From positions 1-27,436 of IMG/VR virus record IMGVR_UViG_3300006921_000112: 27,436 nucleotides of DNA; one strand, written 5' to 3'. The DNA comes from a virus. The notes under the pieces were generated by a model that did not search any database, had not been told where the DNA came from, and saw only the letters and a list, made by a program, of their open reading frames with translations. A program made the position numbers and the translations under genes. Shown in pieces: positions 1 through 27,436 of the stretch. Every line of letters starts with the position of its first letter. Within the stretch, counting starts at the first letter, position 1.

Positions 1-6
1 AAGTCA

Positions 7-79
7 TTTATGAAGTTTGTTATCTTTATGAAGTTTGTTAAACTGCTTTTGTGTAAGTTACTTATGTTTGTGTAAGTTA
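7..79. repeat. AT-rich direct repeats (iteron-like) at left edge
   Basis: A 16-bp sequence TTTATGAAGTTTGTTA occurs at 7-22 and again, identical, at 25-40 (period 18). A second 13-bp sequence TTTGTGTAAGTTA occurs at 48-60 and 67-79 (period 19). Both pairs are non-coding, AT-rich and tandem, with nearly the same period. The array may continue left of the window. Such arrays can be protein-binding iterons (replication origin, partition or terminase recognition). Which of these applies cannot be told from the sequence. Confidence 0.6.
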
Positions 80-132
80 GCTAAACCCGTCACCGCCTTC
101 TTCACAGTGGACAGGGAATGACCGCACTATAT

Positions 133-299
133 TTTGACTAGCCGTGAAAAGGGCGTCCCCCTTTGAACCCTTGCTAGTCAAACTCTTAGGCGAGTGCAGA
201 GCAGGAGCTAACCCGATACGCTTCTCCAATGGATGCACGCGCTATGTGACACCATCCCTTGATGGTGTTCTCTTCGGGTGGCAAGAGCGAACCTCTTGC
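133..299 (+). ncRNA. Candidate structured RNA of four consecutive stem-loops
   Basis: Four helices follow one another with short linkers. H1 is 133-142 with 173-182 (10 perfect pairs), enclosing an inner hairpin 148-153/159-164. H2 is 189-198 with 234-243 (9 pairs and one A-G mismatch), enclosing 203-208/220-225 with one G-U. H3 is 249-256/261-268 (8 perfect pairs, 4-base loop). H4 is 281-287/293-299 (7 perfect pairs, 5-base loop). The G-U pairs at 189-243, 205-223 and 248-269 favour the plus strand slightly. I do not recognise the family: no tRNA, tmRNA, RNase P or common ribozyme core is visible. Possible roles include a cis-acting antitermination leader (like HK022 put), a packaging RNA or a regulatory RNA. 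A weak TATATT lies at 128-133, but no well-spaced -35 was found. A reading frame across 144-389 is judged spurious. Confidence 0.45.
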
Positions 300-601: not shown

Positions 602-1045
602 ATGTATGATAATCTAGGAAAAGGTTTTGATAAACAAAACTCAAAAGTGCAGGTATTTTTTGTAAAGATGAATCCTGTAGCAAAGGGCCGTCCCCGTTTT
701 ACTCGTAAACTTGGGAGGACTTATACACCGAAAAAGACCAAAGAGGCAACGCAACAGATAGCGGATGTGTTATCAGCAGAGAGGCAGGATACCATCGAGA
801 AGCATCTTCCTGTTGCTGTGTATTTACGTTTTATGTGTAAGCGTCCAAAGGCTTTGAAGAAGGGTGATAGAATCTTGAAGACAACGAAGCCGGACATAGA
901 TAACTACATAAAACTTGTATTAGATGCTTGCAATGATGCGAAGGTGTGGCATGATGATAGTCAAGTAGTAGAGATTCTTGCACAGAAATGGTATTGTGCG
1001 GATTACCAAGAACCAGAGATACAGATACAAATCAGCAGGTTATAA
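602..1045 (+). CDS. rusA: RusA-family Holliday junction resolvase
   Basis: This 147-aa protein is the length expected for RusA, a homodimeric, Mg-dependent endonuclease that resolves four-way DNA junctions. In phages such enzymes debranch replicated DNA before packaging. The diagnostic core is KPDIDNYIK at residues 96-104 followed by D108 and HDDSQVVE at 117-124. D98, D100 and D119 are placed like the catalytic aspartates of E. coli RusA, and K104 like its active-site lysine. The N-terminal PVAKGRPRF (25-33) is the usual RusA basic strand. The ATG has an AAGGAG site at 591-596. It is the first gene of the packaging operon and sits one base before the small terminase, which fits a role in clearing branched concatemers for the packaging motor. 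Residues 1-17 are an extra N-terminal stretch of unknown meaning. Confidence 0.9.
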   Translation: MYDNLGKGFDKQNSKVQVFFVKMNPVAKGRPRFTRKLGRTYTPKKTKEATQQIADVLSAERQDTIEKHLPVAVYLRFMCKRPKALKKGDRILKTTKPDIDNYIKLVLDACNDAKVWHDDSQVVEILAQKWYCADYQEPEIQIQISRL

Positions 1046-1046
1046 C

Positions 1047-1427
1047 ATGGCAATGAAGATTACGAACAAGCATAAGAAAGCGGCCCTTCTCGTAGCGCAG
1101 GGGTATTTAAGTTTAAAGCAGATAGCGAATGAGTGCCAGGTCTCCAGACAGACGATTGTCAGTTGGAAGCAGAAGGTTGATTTTAAGGCATTGGTTATGC
1201 AGTACAGTGAGCCTCTTCTTGATACAGAAGTTCGTGAACGCAATCTGTTGGACACAGCCTACAAGACTCTGAAGATTGTGATGGAGGGATCAGCAAATGA
1301 TGGTGCGAAGGTCAATGCGGCTAAGTATGTCATTGATGTTTTCCGCAACAAGAAGGGAGTAAAGGGTAAGTATACAGTAGAGGACAATACAGAGATGGAT
1401 AAGATTTTAAAGCTGGTTAAGGAGTAA
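1047..1427 (+). CDS. terS: Terminase small subunit
   Basis: The product is 126 aa. Residues about 21-43 form a helix-turn-helix (LSLKQIANECQVSRQTIVSW), as in small terminase subunits that recognise the packaging site and present DNA to the motor. The rest is helical (61-103), as expected for the oligomerisation core, with a charged C-terminal tail that normally contacts the large subunit. An earlier in-frame ATG at 978 would overlap RusA by 68 bases and add 23 basic residues. I chose 1047 because it follows the RusA stop directly and places the HTH at the usual distance from the N-terminus. The stop overlaps the next start as TAATG at 1425-1429. The DNA target may be the G-run or repeat region upstream, or a site inside this gene. 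Confidence 0.85.
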   Translation: MAMKITNKHKKAALLVAQGYLSLKQIANECQVSRQTIVSWKQKVDFKALVMQYSEPLLDTEVRERNLLDTAYKTLKIVMEGSANDGAKVNAAKYVIDVFRNKKGVKGKYTVEDNTEMDKILKLVKE

Positions 1428-2971
1428 TGGGTAAGATTCCCTACATTTCGTACAAAGTTCCTCGTCGCCATCGAAAGAACCTTCAAGAAGTTTTATCTGA
1501 CCCGATAAAGTTTTTTAAGTTGCTTCGTGTCCAGGATAAGTACAGTGGTGCGTACAAGCAGTTTGATTTATATCCAGAGCAAGAGCAGTTGCTTAAGCAG
1601 GTGCAATCCAGTAATAAGATTGTTGTAGTCAAGCCTCGTCAGATTGGTGTGAGTACTGTATTGAGGGCATATGCTTTCTGGAAGATATACACATCGAAAG
1701 ACCCAATAAAGTATGGTGTTCTTTCGTTCCATGACCGTAGTGCAAAACATCTTCGTAAGATGGACAATCTTTTTTTGGGTGGGTTGCCAGAGATGTTGAA
1801 GAGACATTGCTCTATCGACAATACAACAGACTTGATTTTCGATGATACGCAGGCAGGATTGTCCTCGTATACTGCTCGCTCGTCTGGAGGAACAAGAAGT
1901 TTCACTCTGAACGCGGCACATCTCAGTGAGTTTGCCTTTTATCCAGATCAAGAAGAGGTGTTGGCACAGGTGGTGGCTACAGTAGGGAGAGGACAGATTG
2001 TGATTGAGTCCACACCGAATACGGTTGGAGATATATTTCACAAGTTGTGCAAGGAGTCTCCCGACAATGGGTGGACACTGGTTACATTTTGGTGGTGGCA
2101 ACACCAGAACTACAGGACTCCTGCTCCTACAGACATGATTTACACTGAACTGGAAGACAAACTACGTAAGTTGTATGGATTAGATGATGATCAGTTGCAG
2201 TGGAGACGTGAACAAGTTGCTACGATTGGCATTGATAAGTTTAAGCGAGAATACCCTGCCAGTATCGATGATGCATTTAGCTTTGGTTCGTCTGCTTATT
2301 TTGACCCAGATGCTTTGGACCAGATTGAGCCGATTATATTTGATGGGAATGAACGAGAGTATGAGGAGGTTTATCCTGACGATGTATATGCAATCGGTGT
2401 AGATACAGCTGGTGGAGTTGGTGGTGATTATAGTTGTATATGCGTTGTGTCTATGTCTTCAAGAGAGGTTGTTTACCAGTATCGTTGCAACACAATCTCT
2501 CCTGTAGAGTTTTCCGAAAAGATTATGGTGATTGGTCAAAAGTTTAATAATGCATTGATACTGGCTGAGAGCAATAATCATGGTCATGTGGTTATACAGA
2601 AGTTGATTGATTATGGGTATACAAACCTGTGGTATAGTAACGAAGGCAAGCATTGGGTTACCAGTGCCAAGAGCAAAATAGAAGCCTACGAGATTTTAAG
2701 AGAGATGATTTCTGCGAATATGTTATCAAGACTGGACATGACTACAATGATGGAGTTACGGAGTATGACGATTTACAAAGTAGCTCCAGAAGCCCCGAAG
2801 GGGTTGCATGATGATATGGCGGATGCAATGGCATTGGCCTACAGGTGTGCTAGAGATATACCAAGTTATATGGTTCGCAATGCAAAGCAGGGATTGATGG
2901 ATAGATTGATTAGCCATAAAAGAGCAAAACGGATACGATTGATGCGATTGCCTTACAGGAGTGCAGAATGA
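1427..2971 (+). CDS. terL: Terminase large subunit (packaging ATPase and nuclease)
   Basis: The protein is 514 aa, typical for a podovirus TerL, which pumps DNA into the prohead at the portal and cuts the concatemer. The ATPase half shows a Walker A variant VKPRQIGVST (68-77), a Walker B strand ending in SE (LNAAHLSEFAF, 161-171; E168 is the likely catalytic glutamate) and the coupling motif ESTPN (194-198). The RNase-H-like nuclease half shows GVDTAGG (324-330, D326), AESNN (380-384, E381) and HDDMADAMA (461-469). All expected acidic residues are present, so the enzyme looks intact. The start ATG overlaps the TerS stop, with GGAG just upstream. The end overlaps the portal start as ATGA at 2968-2971. 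Which packaging strategy it serves (headful or cos) cannot be decided from the sequence alone. Confidence 0.96.
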   Translation: MGKIPYISYKVPRRHRKNLQEVLSDPIKFFKLLRVQDKYSGAYKQFDLYPEQEQLLKQVQSSNKIVVVKPRQIGVSTVLRAYAFWKIYTSKDPIKYGVLSFHDRSAKHLRKMDNLFLGGLPEMLKRHCSIDNTTDLIFDDTQAGLSSYTARSSGGTRSFTLNAAHLSEFAFYPDQEEVLAQVVATVGRGQIVIESTPNTVGDIFHKLCKESPDNGWTLVTFWWWQHQNYRTPAPTDMIYTELEDKLRKLYGLDDDQLQWRREQVATIGIDKFKREYPASIDDAFSFGSSAYFDPDALDQIEPIIFDGNEREYEEVYPDDVYAIGVDTAGGVGGDYSCICVVSMSSREVVYQYRCNTISPVEFSEKIMVIGQKFNNALILAESNNHGHVVIQKLIDYGYTNLWYSNEGKHWVTSAKSKIEAYEILREMISANMLSRLDMTTMMELRSMTIYKVAPEAPKGLHDDMADAMALAYRCARDIPSYMVRNAKQGLMDRLISHKRAKRIRLMRLPYRSAE

Positions 2972-23745: not shown

Positions 23746-23777
23746 AACCCCTCTATGTTTATAGAGGGGTTTTTTTT
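23746..23777 (+). terminator. Strong intrinsic terminator before the lysis genes
   Basis: An 11-bp stem (23746-23756 with 23761-23771, core CCCCTCTAT/ATAGAGGGG) with a 4-base loop runs into eight T (23770-23777). The next start codon is at 23788, and its TTGGAG ribosome site begins inside the U-run. Lysis genes must therefore be reached by read-through or antitermination. Confidence 0.92.
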
Positions 23778-25904: not shown

Positions 25905-27436
25905 TGGGTGACCTATAGATGCCAGTTTTATTTAGACCACCACGTCTACATCTACGTCCGTTGTTCTGTAGTTCAGCACCCAAGCGAATCAACAGAGACG
26001 GGTAGTAGTTCTCATAGTTGGCCGGCTTTGTGGTGCGCATGCTGTACACTTTGTCAATCATATCAGCTACCGTAAAGTAGCTGTCTGGATTCTCGGACAG
26101 GTACTGATCAACCAATGATTCGTGGATGCCAACGACAGAGTGACTATCGTTCTCCTCCTCTCTCCACTTCTCTTCCTCTGGTGAGAGATACCACTTCTCA
26201 CCCAGCTTGAAACGAGCAACAGCCTCTGCCCATATTTGGTCACGATTCTTTTTGAGAATGGCAGGGTCATATCCCATGTGGTGTTCGATGCTGTCACATA
26301 CCACATACCAATATCGTCTTGAGCCTGTCTTGTCCTTGAATATACCAACATCATCATCGTTGGTTGACCCTGTAAAGATTGACGTTCGTGGTACTTTGAC
26401 TTCGTACTTTGTGTATGCTCTTCGGAATGTATCATAGAGATCAGAGATGAAGTTTTTAATGGTATTCGCATCCTTCTTGGCCATGACTGCTAGCTCTGCC
26501 ATCTCATGTATCCATGCTGTACGCAGTATGGACTGACCATCCTTCTCTCCAATGTTTATCTTGGATGAGTTGTACCACGGGTAGTTGGTTATCGGACAGT
26601 GACCTGCCAGTATTCGGAAGAACGTTCCCTTCCCATGTCCTTGTCCGGCTTTGAGTACCAACATAGATTCCACTTGGCATCCTGGCGACATGGCTCTGGC
26701 AACAGCAGAGATAGCCCAGTATCTACCGTATGCTCTGTTGAGTTTGGTATCCTCCGCTTTCATGTAGTCGATCAGCAGAGTATCAAGTCGGTTCTTCCCA
26801 TCCCATTTGTCAGCCACAGACTCTAGGTATTCCACCAGAGTATTTTTGGTGTGGTCTGTAGCATGTAGTGTGATCGCCTGTTGCACACTCTTGAGATCCA
26901 GTGTACGCCCAACGAAAAAACGTTGTCGTAACTCATTCATTATTTTTAGTTCAAGAGCATCCGTCATCGGCTCGCCTTTCGAAAATATAGACTGTCGTAT
27001 CTCACACAACCATATGTCTAGGGAGAGAGAGTCCATCATCGTCATGAGATTGTCTACCGATTTGAGGTAGTGCCATGTGGTGTTTTTTGCACTGTACTGT
27101 AGCTCCAAACCATTGTATGTTGTGACGCAATCCATGTGCATTTTCCGTTTGTTGACCATTGAACAACGGAATCGGCTTACTCCCCATACGTCTGTCGCTT
27201 TGGAGATAAATGCACTTCCCATCGAATCACTTCCGGTAGCATAGCATTGGTACTTAGACTGTCGTTTGGGGAGGTTATCCCACTGCTCGATGTACCAGTC
27301 GAACGGATGTTGTTGTCCATCGTGTCCTGTAATCGGGTAGTGAGCTGGCACTGTGATTATTTTATATCGTTCTTCAGAATGAGAAGAACCACGCACATCA
27401 GTATGAGTATGAGTAGATACATTTGTTGTACGCTTG
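25894..27436 (-). CDS. VirE/VapE-type primase-helicase, 5' end outside the window
   Basis: The frame stays open to the right edge, so the true start probably lies beyond 27436. A GTG at 27396 would give 500 aa but has no clear ribosome site. Counting from that GTG, an SF3-like P-loop ATPase core shows Walker A AGQGHGKGTF (250-259, K256), Walker B AWIHEMAEL (294-302, E298), then VPRTSIFTGSTND (335-347) and TGSRRYW (357-363). These are the hallmarks of virulence-associated E family helicases, common in phages and mobile elements, often fused to an N-terminal primase domain that would lie off-window. It likely unwinds DNA at the replication fork. The C-terminal ~110 residues form a winged-helix-like region, ending Arg/Gly-rich (GRRCRRGGLNKTGIYR). 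Confidence 0.85.
   Translation of the reverse strand, partial: KRTTNVSTHTHTDVRGSSHSEERYKIITVPAHYPITGHDGQQHPFDWYIEQWDNLPKRQSKYQCYATGSDSMGSAFISKATDVWGVSRFRCSMVNKRKMHMDCVTTYNGLELQYSAKNTTWHYLKSVDNLMTMMDSLSLDIWLCEIRQSIFSKGEPMTDALELKIMNELRQRFFVGRTLDLKSVQQAITLHATDHTKNTLVEYLESVADKWDGKNRLDTLLIDYMKAEDTKLNRAYGRYWAISAVARAMSPGCQVESMLVLKAGQGHGKGTFFRILAGHCPITNYPWYNSSKINIGEKDGQSILRTAWIHEMAELAVMAKKDANTIKNFISDLYDTFRRAYTKYEVKVPRTSIFTGSTNDDDVGIFKDKTGSRRYWYVVCDSIEHHMGYDPAILKKNRDQIWAEAVARFKLGEKWYLSPEEEKWREEENDSHSVVGIHESLVDQYLSENPDSYFTVADMIDKVYSMRTTKPANYENYYPSLLIRLGAELQNNGRRCRRGGLNKTGIYRSPSGK

Follow-up and report, generated by a model that had tools for sequence, protein, structure and literature searches.

The lambda nut site, which comprises boxA and one short hairpin (boxB), recruits antitermination factors with an N-type protein, while the pRNA of phi29 is a non-coding packaging RNA whose ring works with the packaging ATPase and takes the place of a small terminase. 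In HK022, the put RNA brings about factor-independent antitermination through the β′ zinc-binding domain. The put RNA consists of two bulged stem-loops of approximately 70–80 nt and lies close to where a long operon begins (PMC9378689). The element described here lies near one end of the window (the whole stretch analyzed, a 27.4-kb virus record) and consists of a conserved hairpin, P1 (H1 in the initial annotation), followed in seven related phages by a second hairpin, P2. As a candidate phage leader RNA with two stem-loops (P1 and P2 in the seven relatives) it resembles put, but put belongs to early operons, 3′ of PL and PR, whereas the operon here is a late one, the linker between P1 and P2 is here approximately 13 nt, and P2 is not intact in the window. 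With lambda nut, as generally understood, it shares a leader hairpin (that of nut recruiting antitermination factors), but P1 has an asymmetric internal loop and a variable apical loop, and the relatives carry a second hairpin. With phi29 pRNA, again on the general picture of that phage, it shares a non-coding character, a similar length and a position near packaging genes, and a packaging role had been offered in the initial annotation. A packaging RNA of the phi29 type is unlikely, since a terminase large subunit (Terminase_6C) and a TerS-like HTH protein are encoded here and no match to the pRNA family was found in whole Rfam scans.

The element sits between a divergent minus-strand early operon, whose genes include a VapE-type primase, and the plus-strand rusA-terS-terL operon, which encodes RusA, the TerS-like protein, Terminase_6C, a portal, an SU10-type adaptor and, further on, an amidase. 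The window contains only part of the early region. Across the leader region a second contig (L002/L065) has the identical sequence, and it extends 1053 bases further upstream. A TerL search of IMG/VR gave 35 relatives, and no cultivated close relative was found by TerL. The initial annotation could place the RNA in no known family, and this is borne out by cmscan of the window against Rfam 15, which gave no match at the gathering level; at E ≤ 5 the matches were chance ones in other parts of the leader, with none over P1, and positions 1150–1600 of one carrier (L027) gave no match at that same threshold. Direct nucleotide search together with an exact pattern for 133–299 returned only the same phage, blastn against the relatives gave no match to this segment, a literature search for such a phage leader element yielded nothing specific, and a search for a co-occurring partner gene with two early proteins gave no lead. 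The open reading frame at 144–389 has no counterpart in the relatives and no coding frame is common to the carriers, in agreement with the earlier view that the segment holds no coding content to be trusted. Several frames look similar among the closely related carriers owing to the similarity of their DNA, but these have neither a start nor a stop nor a frame in common, and the frame of the window matches none of them.

At the level of sequence comparison, the decisive evidence is covariation in the relatives, and it supports H1 only. A covariance model made from the window alone (R1, 130–302) matched L053 and L025, and inspection then traced the element to seven phage contigs, the carriers besides the window (L025, L027, L028, L029, L030, L031 and L053). 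From an alignment of these seven with the window left out (A4), RNAalifold unaided returns two hairpins, P1 and P2. On the structure so named, 100% of the cells in A4 pair, 8 of the 21 pairs vary on both sides and none of the 21 shows a one-sided change (equaled by 0 of 500 shuffles), while pairing collapses in the slid-partner controls; the independent events are fewer than these cell counts, since L028 hardly differs from L029 and a number of the RusA proteins are 91–96% alike. The model built from A4 without the window (R2) finds a single match in the window, at 130–254, with 20.8 bits and an E of 3.3e-5.

Adding the window gives two-sided changes in 7 of the 8 outer-stem pairs of P1 across seven phages, a level that 0 of 500 shuffles reach, so the covariation in relatives to which the initial annotation had looked is present for H1. 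The outer stem occurs as UGACUAGC, GAGAUAGC, GACAGAGC, GAUAUAGC and GCGUAGUC, with matching partners (imperfectly in the last), and the internal loop is constant, its 5′ strand being C-GU-GA and its 3′ strand GA-AC-CCUU; in L025, the tandem GA/GA is replaced by Watson-Crick UC/GA. The R2 match, the outer-stem compensation and the constant sequence between the stems together mean that the window shares P1, and conservation of the P1-P2 block exceeds that of the sequence directly downstream. We are highly confident that the conservation of P1 as a structure is genuine. R2 run across 20 whole records found the element only in four known carriers, a model of P1 alone (R3) found it in no further relative, and neither model matched positions 26000–40000 of HK022 (NC_002166, a record without put annotation) at E ≤ 10. 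R2 matches in L034, L022 and L164 were set aside as poor fits or as covering the unstructured part only. A wider P1 pattern hit 72 contigs, and of these hits only those in carriers look genuine (the best one outside them, L084, lies in open coding frames), and P2 patterns hit carriers only, apart from L139 and L238–L245, which we judged to be chance.

The hairpins H1 to H4 of the initial annotation are all present in 133–299 (Table 1), H2 with eight pairs and one mismatch instead of nine pairs. The four-helix unit does not survive comparison with the relatives, as only H1 is kept, the P2 of the relatives differs from H2, and no counterparts of H2, H3 or H4 were found there. The proposed comparison of RNAfold energy with shuffled sequence gives a minimum free energy of −59.3 kcal/mol for 133–299 vs. 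−47.7 kcal/mol (sd 4.1) for 200 dinucleotide shuffles (z of −2.82), with 0 of 200 as low as the native sequence. Windows of 120 nt across the region score similarly on either strand (z of approximately −1.4 to −2.5), so the energy of the fold is by itself no more than moderate evidence. Within 133–299 the pair probabilities are near 1.0 for H1 (two end pairs excepted), 0.88–1.0 for H3 and approximately 0.97 for H4, and H3 and H4 are stable in all contexts folded. H2 depends on context, with a pair probability of approximately 0.9 in the fold of 133–299 and 0.08 in that of 85–420, and it uses nucleotides of the conserved UGCAGAGCA. P1 itself is stable in the shorter stretches folded but is displaced in the predicted fold of 80–620, which includes a G-run near 428–442; this opening is specific to the window and probably reflects pairing of the C-rich apical part with the downstream G-run. 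On reading the sequence, the 3′ half of H4 resembles the 3′ strand of P1 (GCGAACC-CUUGC).

P2 covaries in the seven relatives and has the internal loop GUA/A. The window keeps only UGCAGAGCA of P2; the flanking P2a stem is absent and no local pairing is predicted for the retained segment. A third helix 3′ of P2 was dropped, as it shows no covariation. At L030:1575–1645 there is a tandem duplication of a segment 3′ of P2 (AGCG..AACCGAGTCTC.CGACGAGGGAGCG).

Table 1. Coordinates of the leader features and adjoining genes in the window.
Feature	Position	Strand	Basis or remark
Upstream region	1..89	+	Alignment A7 with the relatives' repeats and TATAAT box
P1 (H1), conserved hairpin	133..182	+	Covariance-model matches in both directions; compensation; pair probabilities
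P1 outer stem	133-142/173-182	+	10 bp
P1 internal loop, first part	C143 unpaired, opposite CCUU 169-172	+	
P1 internal loop, pairs	GU 144-145 with AC 167-168	+	
P1 internal loop, tandem GA	146-147 / GA 165-166	+	
P1 inner stem	148-153/159-164	+	
P1 apical loop, CGUCC	154-158	+	
H2 stem, GCGaGUGCA/UGCACgCGC	190..242; arms 190-198/234-242	+	Window-specific
UGCAGAGCA, apical part of the relatives' P2	195..203	+	Invariant in 8/8 sequences; aligned by R2
H3 hairpin, ACACCAUC-CCUU-GAUGGUGU	249..268; arms 249-256/261-268	+	Window-specific
H4 hairpin, GCAAGAG-CGAAC-CUCUUGC	281..299; arms 281-287/293-299	+	Window-specific
rusA, first gene 3′ of the RNA	602..1045	+	Pfam RusA, E 8e-28
TerS-like HTH protein and terminase large subunit	1047..2971	+	Pfam HTH_Tnp_1_2, Terminase_5, Terminase_6C

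Two features of P1 favor the plus strand: its conserved tandem G-A pairs, which the opposite strand would turn into C-U, and a U-G pair in L031 that would become A-C; the RNAalifold energies are near-equal by strand (−26.1 vs. −25.2) and leave the choice undecided. Six carriers have a TATAAT box, preceded by repeats, approximately 55 nt 5′ of P1. In the window there is no good −10 at the place aligned with this box, and a start from the nearest sigma70-like match (108–135) would fall inside P1.

Our preferred reading, to which we assign a probability of roughly 0.4, is that the element is a structured leader RNA that would act in cis on the late operon. The RNA would be transcribed on the plus strand from the upstream promoter region, which would place the element near the 5′ end of a late transcript of approximately 25 kb. 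The conserved loops (C-GU-GA/GA-AC-CCUU in P1 and GUA/A in P2) would serve as a binding site for RNA polymerase or for a protein of the phage or its host, and this binding would act in cis and set late-gene expression. The lack of a clear −10 in the window, the loss of P1 in the 80–620 fold and the absence of the element from close relatives count against such a leader. Cis-acting antitermination by the leader RNA seems plausible, and modification of the polymerase as by HK022 put would be the single most likely mechanism. The leaky terminators attributed to the late operon in the initial annotation do not hold up, as terminator-like sites in the window are no commoner than in shuffles and there is one strong terminator, a bidirectional one at 23746–23771, ahead of the lysis genes. 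One strong terminator per late operon is found in 7 of 7 examined (the window, three carriers and three non-carriers), and the sequences of the matching-region terminators in six relatives (L232–L237) differ between groups. With a terminator present both with and without the RNA, antitermination is possible but unindicated. What stands of the earlier leader-RNA reading is a structured, non-coding and covarying leader of a late operon; the unit of four helices and the several leaky terminators fall away.

Acting in trans, a small RNA or decoy with a promoter of its own between the divergent operons could instead target a host factor or an mRNA. The compactness and conservation of the element, its non-coding surroundings, the conserved CCUU and AGA segments left unpaired and the TATAAT box upstream in six carriers would suit this reading. 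We consider this unlikely, as the plus strand of the window leader has no terminator-like site after P1-P2 and the order relative to rusA is fixed. The many palindromic repeats between the divergent operons, the fact that nearly all compensations are Watson-Crick and the ability of both strands to fold would fit instead with a hairpin acting at the DNA level, in single-stranded or supercoiled DNA, as a replication origin, packaging site or protein-binding site. This seems less likely still, in that asymmetric loops with tandem G-A and the U-G pair of L031 suit a plus-strand RNA better, and the stem sequence varies with pairing kept while operators in duplex DNA conserve both arms. Alternatively, the element could serve as a 5′ stabilizer or as a translational regulator of rusA or the late mRNA, with elongation unaffected; in favor of this, its hairpin is stable and lies close to where the very long mRNA presumably begins, and the conserved internal loops suggest a bound partner. 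We rate this lower again, since P1 lies far from the rusA start for direct translational control and a plain stabilizer would need no conserved internal loop. Finally, it is very improbable that there are only chance hairpins and no conserved element: H2, H3 and H4 have no counterpart and other parts of the leader also give energy z-scores of approximately −2 to −3, but the covariation of P1 and the independent R2 match refute this for P1, so that it stands for H2–H4 alone.

The element occupies one genomic place, the rusA-proximal divergent region, in the seven relatives, and in all carriers the distance from the P1 start to rusA is approximately 300–466 nt (the start used for L031 being 9 nt late). 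Close relatives without it (L003, L005, L006, L008, L011, L014 and others) mean that the element is dispensable in the phage family. By TerL and primase the window is nearer to non-carrier phages than to its fellow carriers, which means that the element has either been lost repeatedly or moved as a module. It is an uncatalogued RNA kept by a small group of uncultivated phages. The wider proposal of a new family of late-operon antiterminator RNAs, protein-free or factor-assisted and swapped in modular fashion among the members of an uncultivated phage family, is doubtful.

Other repeated sequences share the leader. Palindrome arrays of GAACA-N2-TGTTC and CTACT-N4-AGTAG, present at 303–378 of the window and in up to many copies per leader, are likely operator sites; the same arrays are found in the leaders of L003, L005, L006, L008, L009, L011, L014 and L017, and they occupy the same region in relatives without the RNA. 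Just upstream of rusA, at 441–502, lies a palindromic stretch (CCCCAAT..TTGRCATGTCAA..ATRGGGG, then AAAAAATCTGCGTTACTTTTTT) that is recognizable in most relatives and, in the carriers, is a part of the leader with very high conservation. In a relative without the RNA (L013:1–80 and L050:2755–2835), the rusA leader has two tandem copies of TTTGGCACGCTCTTTGCAA, which fits the sigma54 −24/−12 consensus (TGGCAC-N5-TTGC).

The comparisons do not identify the element as put RNA or as pRNA, and we class it as a new structured RNA of the leader that most likely would act in cis on late transcription. Conserved internal loops are rare among phage leader RNAs, and put, a well-studied leader RNA, altered the view of how RNA acts on RNA polymerase. 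Here an RNA backed by covariation precedes the entire operon for packaging and capsid, and its small size would permit a direct reporter test; its patchy distribution among related phages provides natural comparisons with and without the element.
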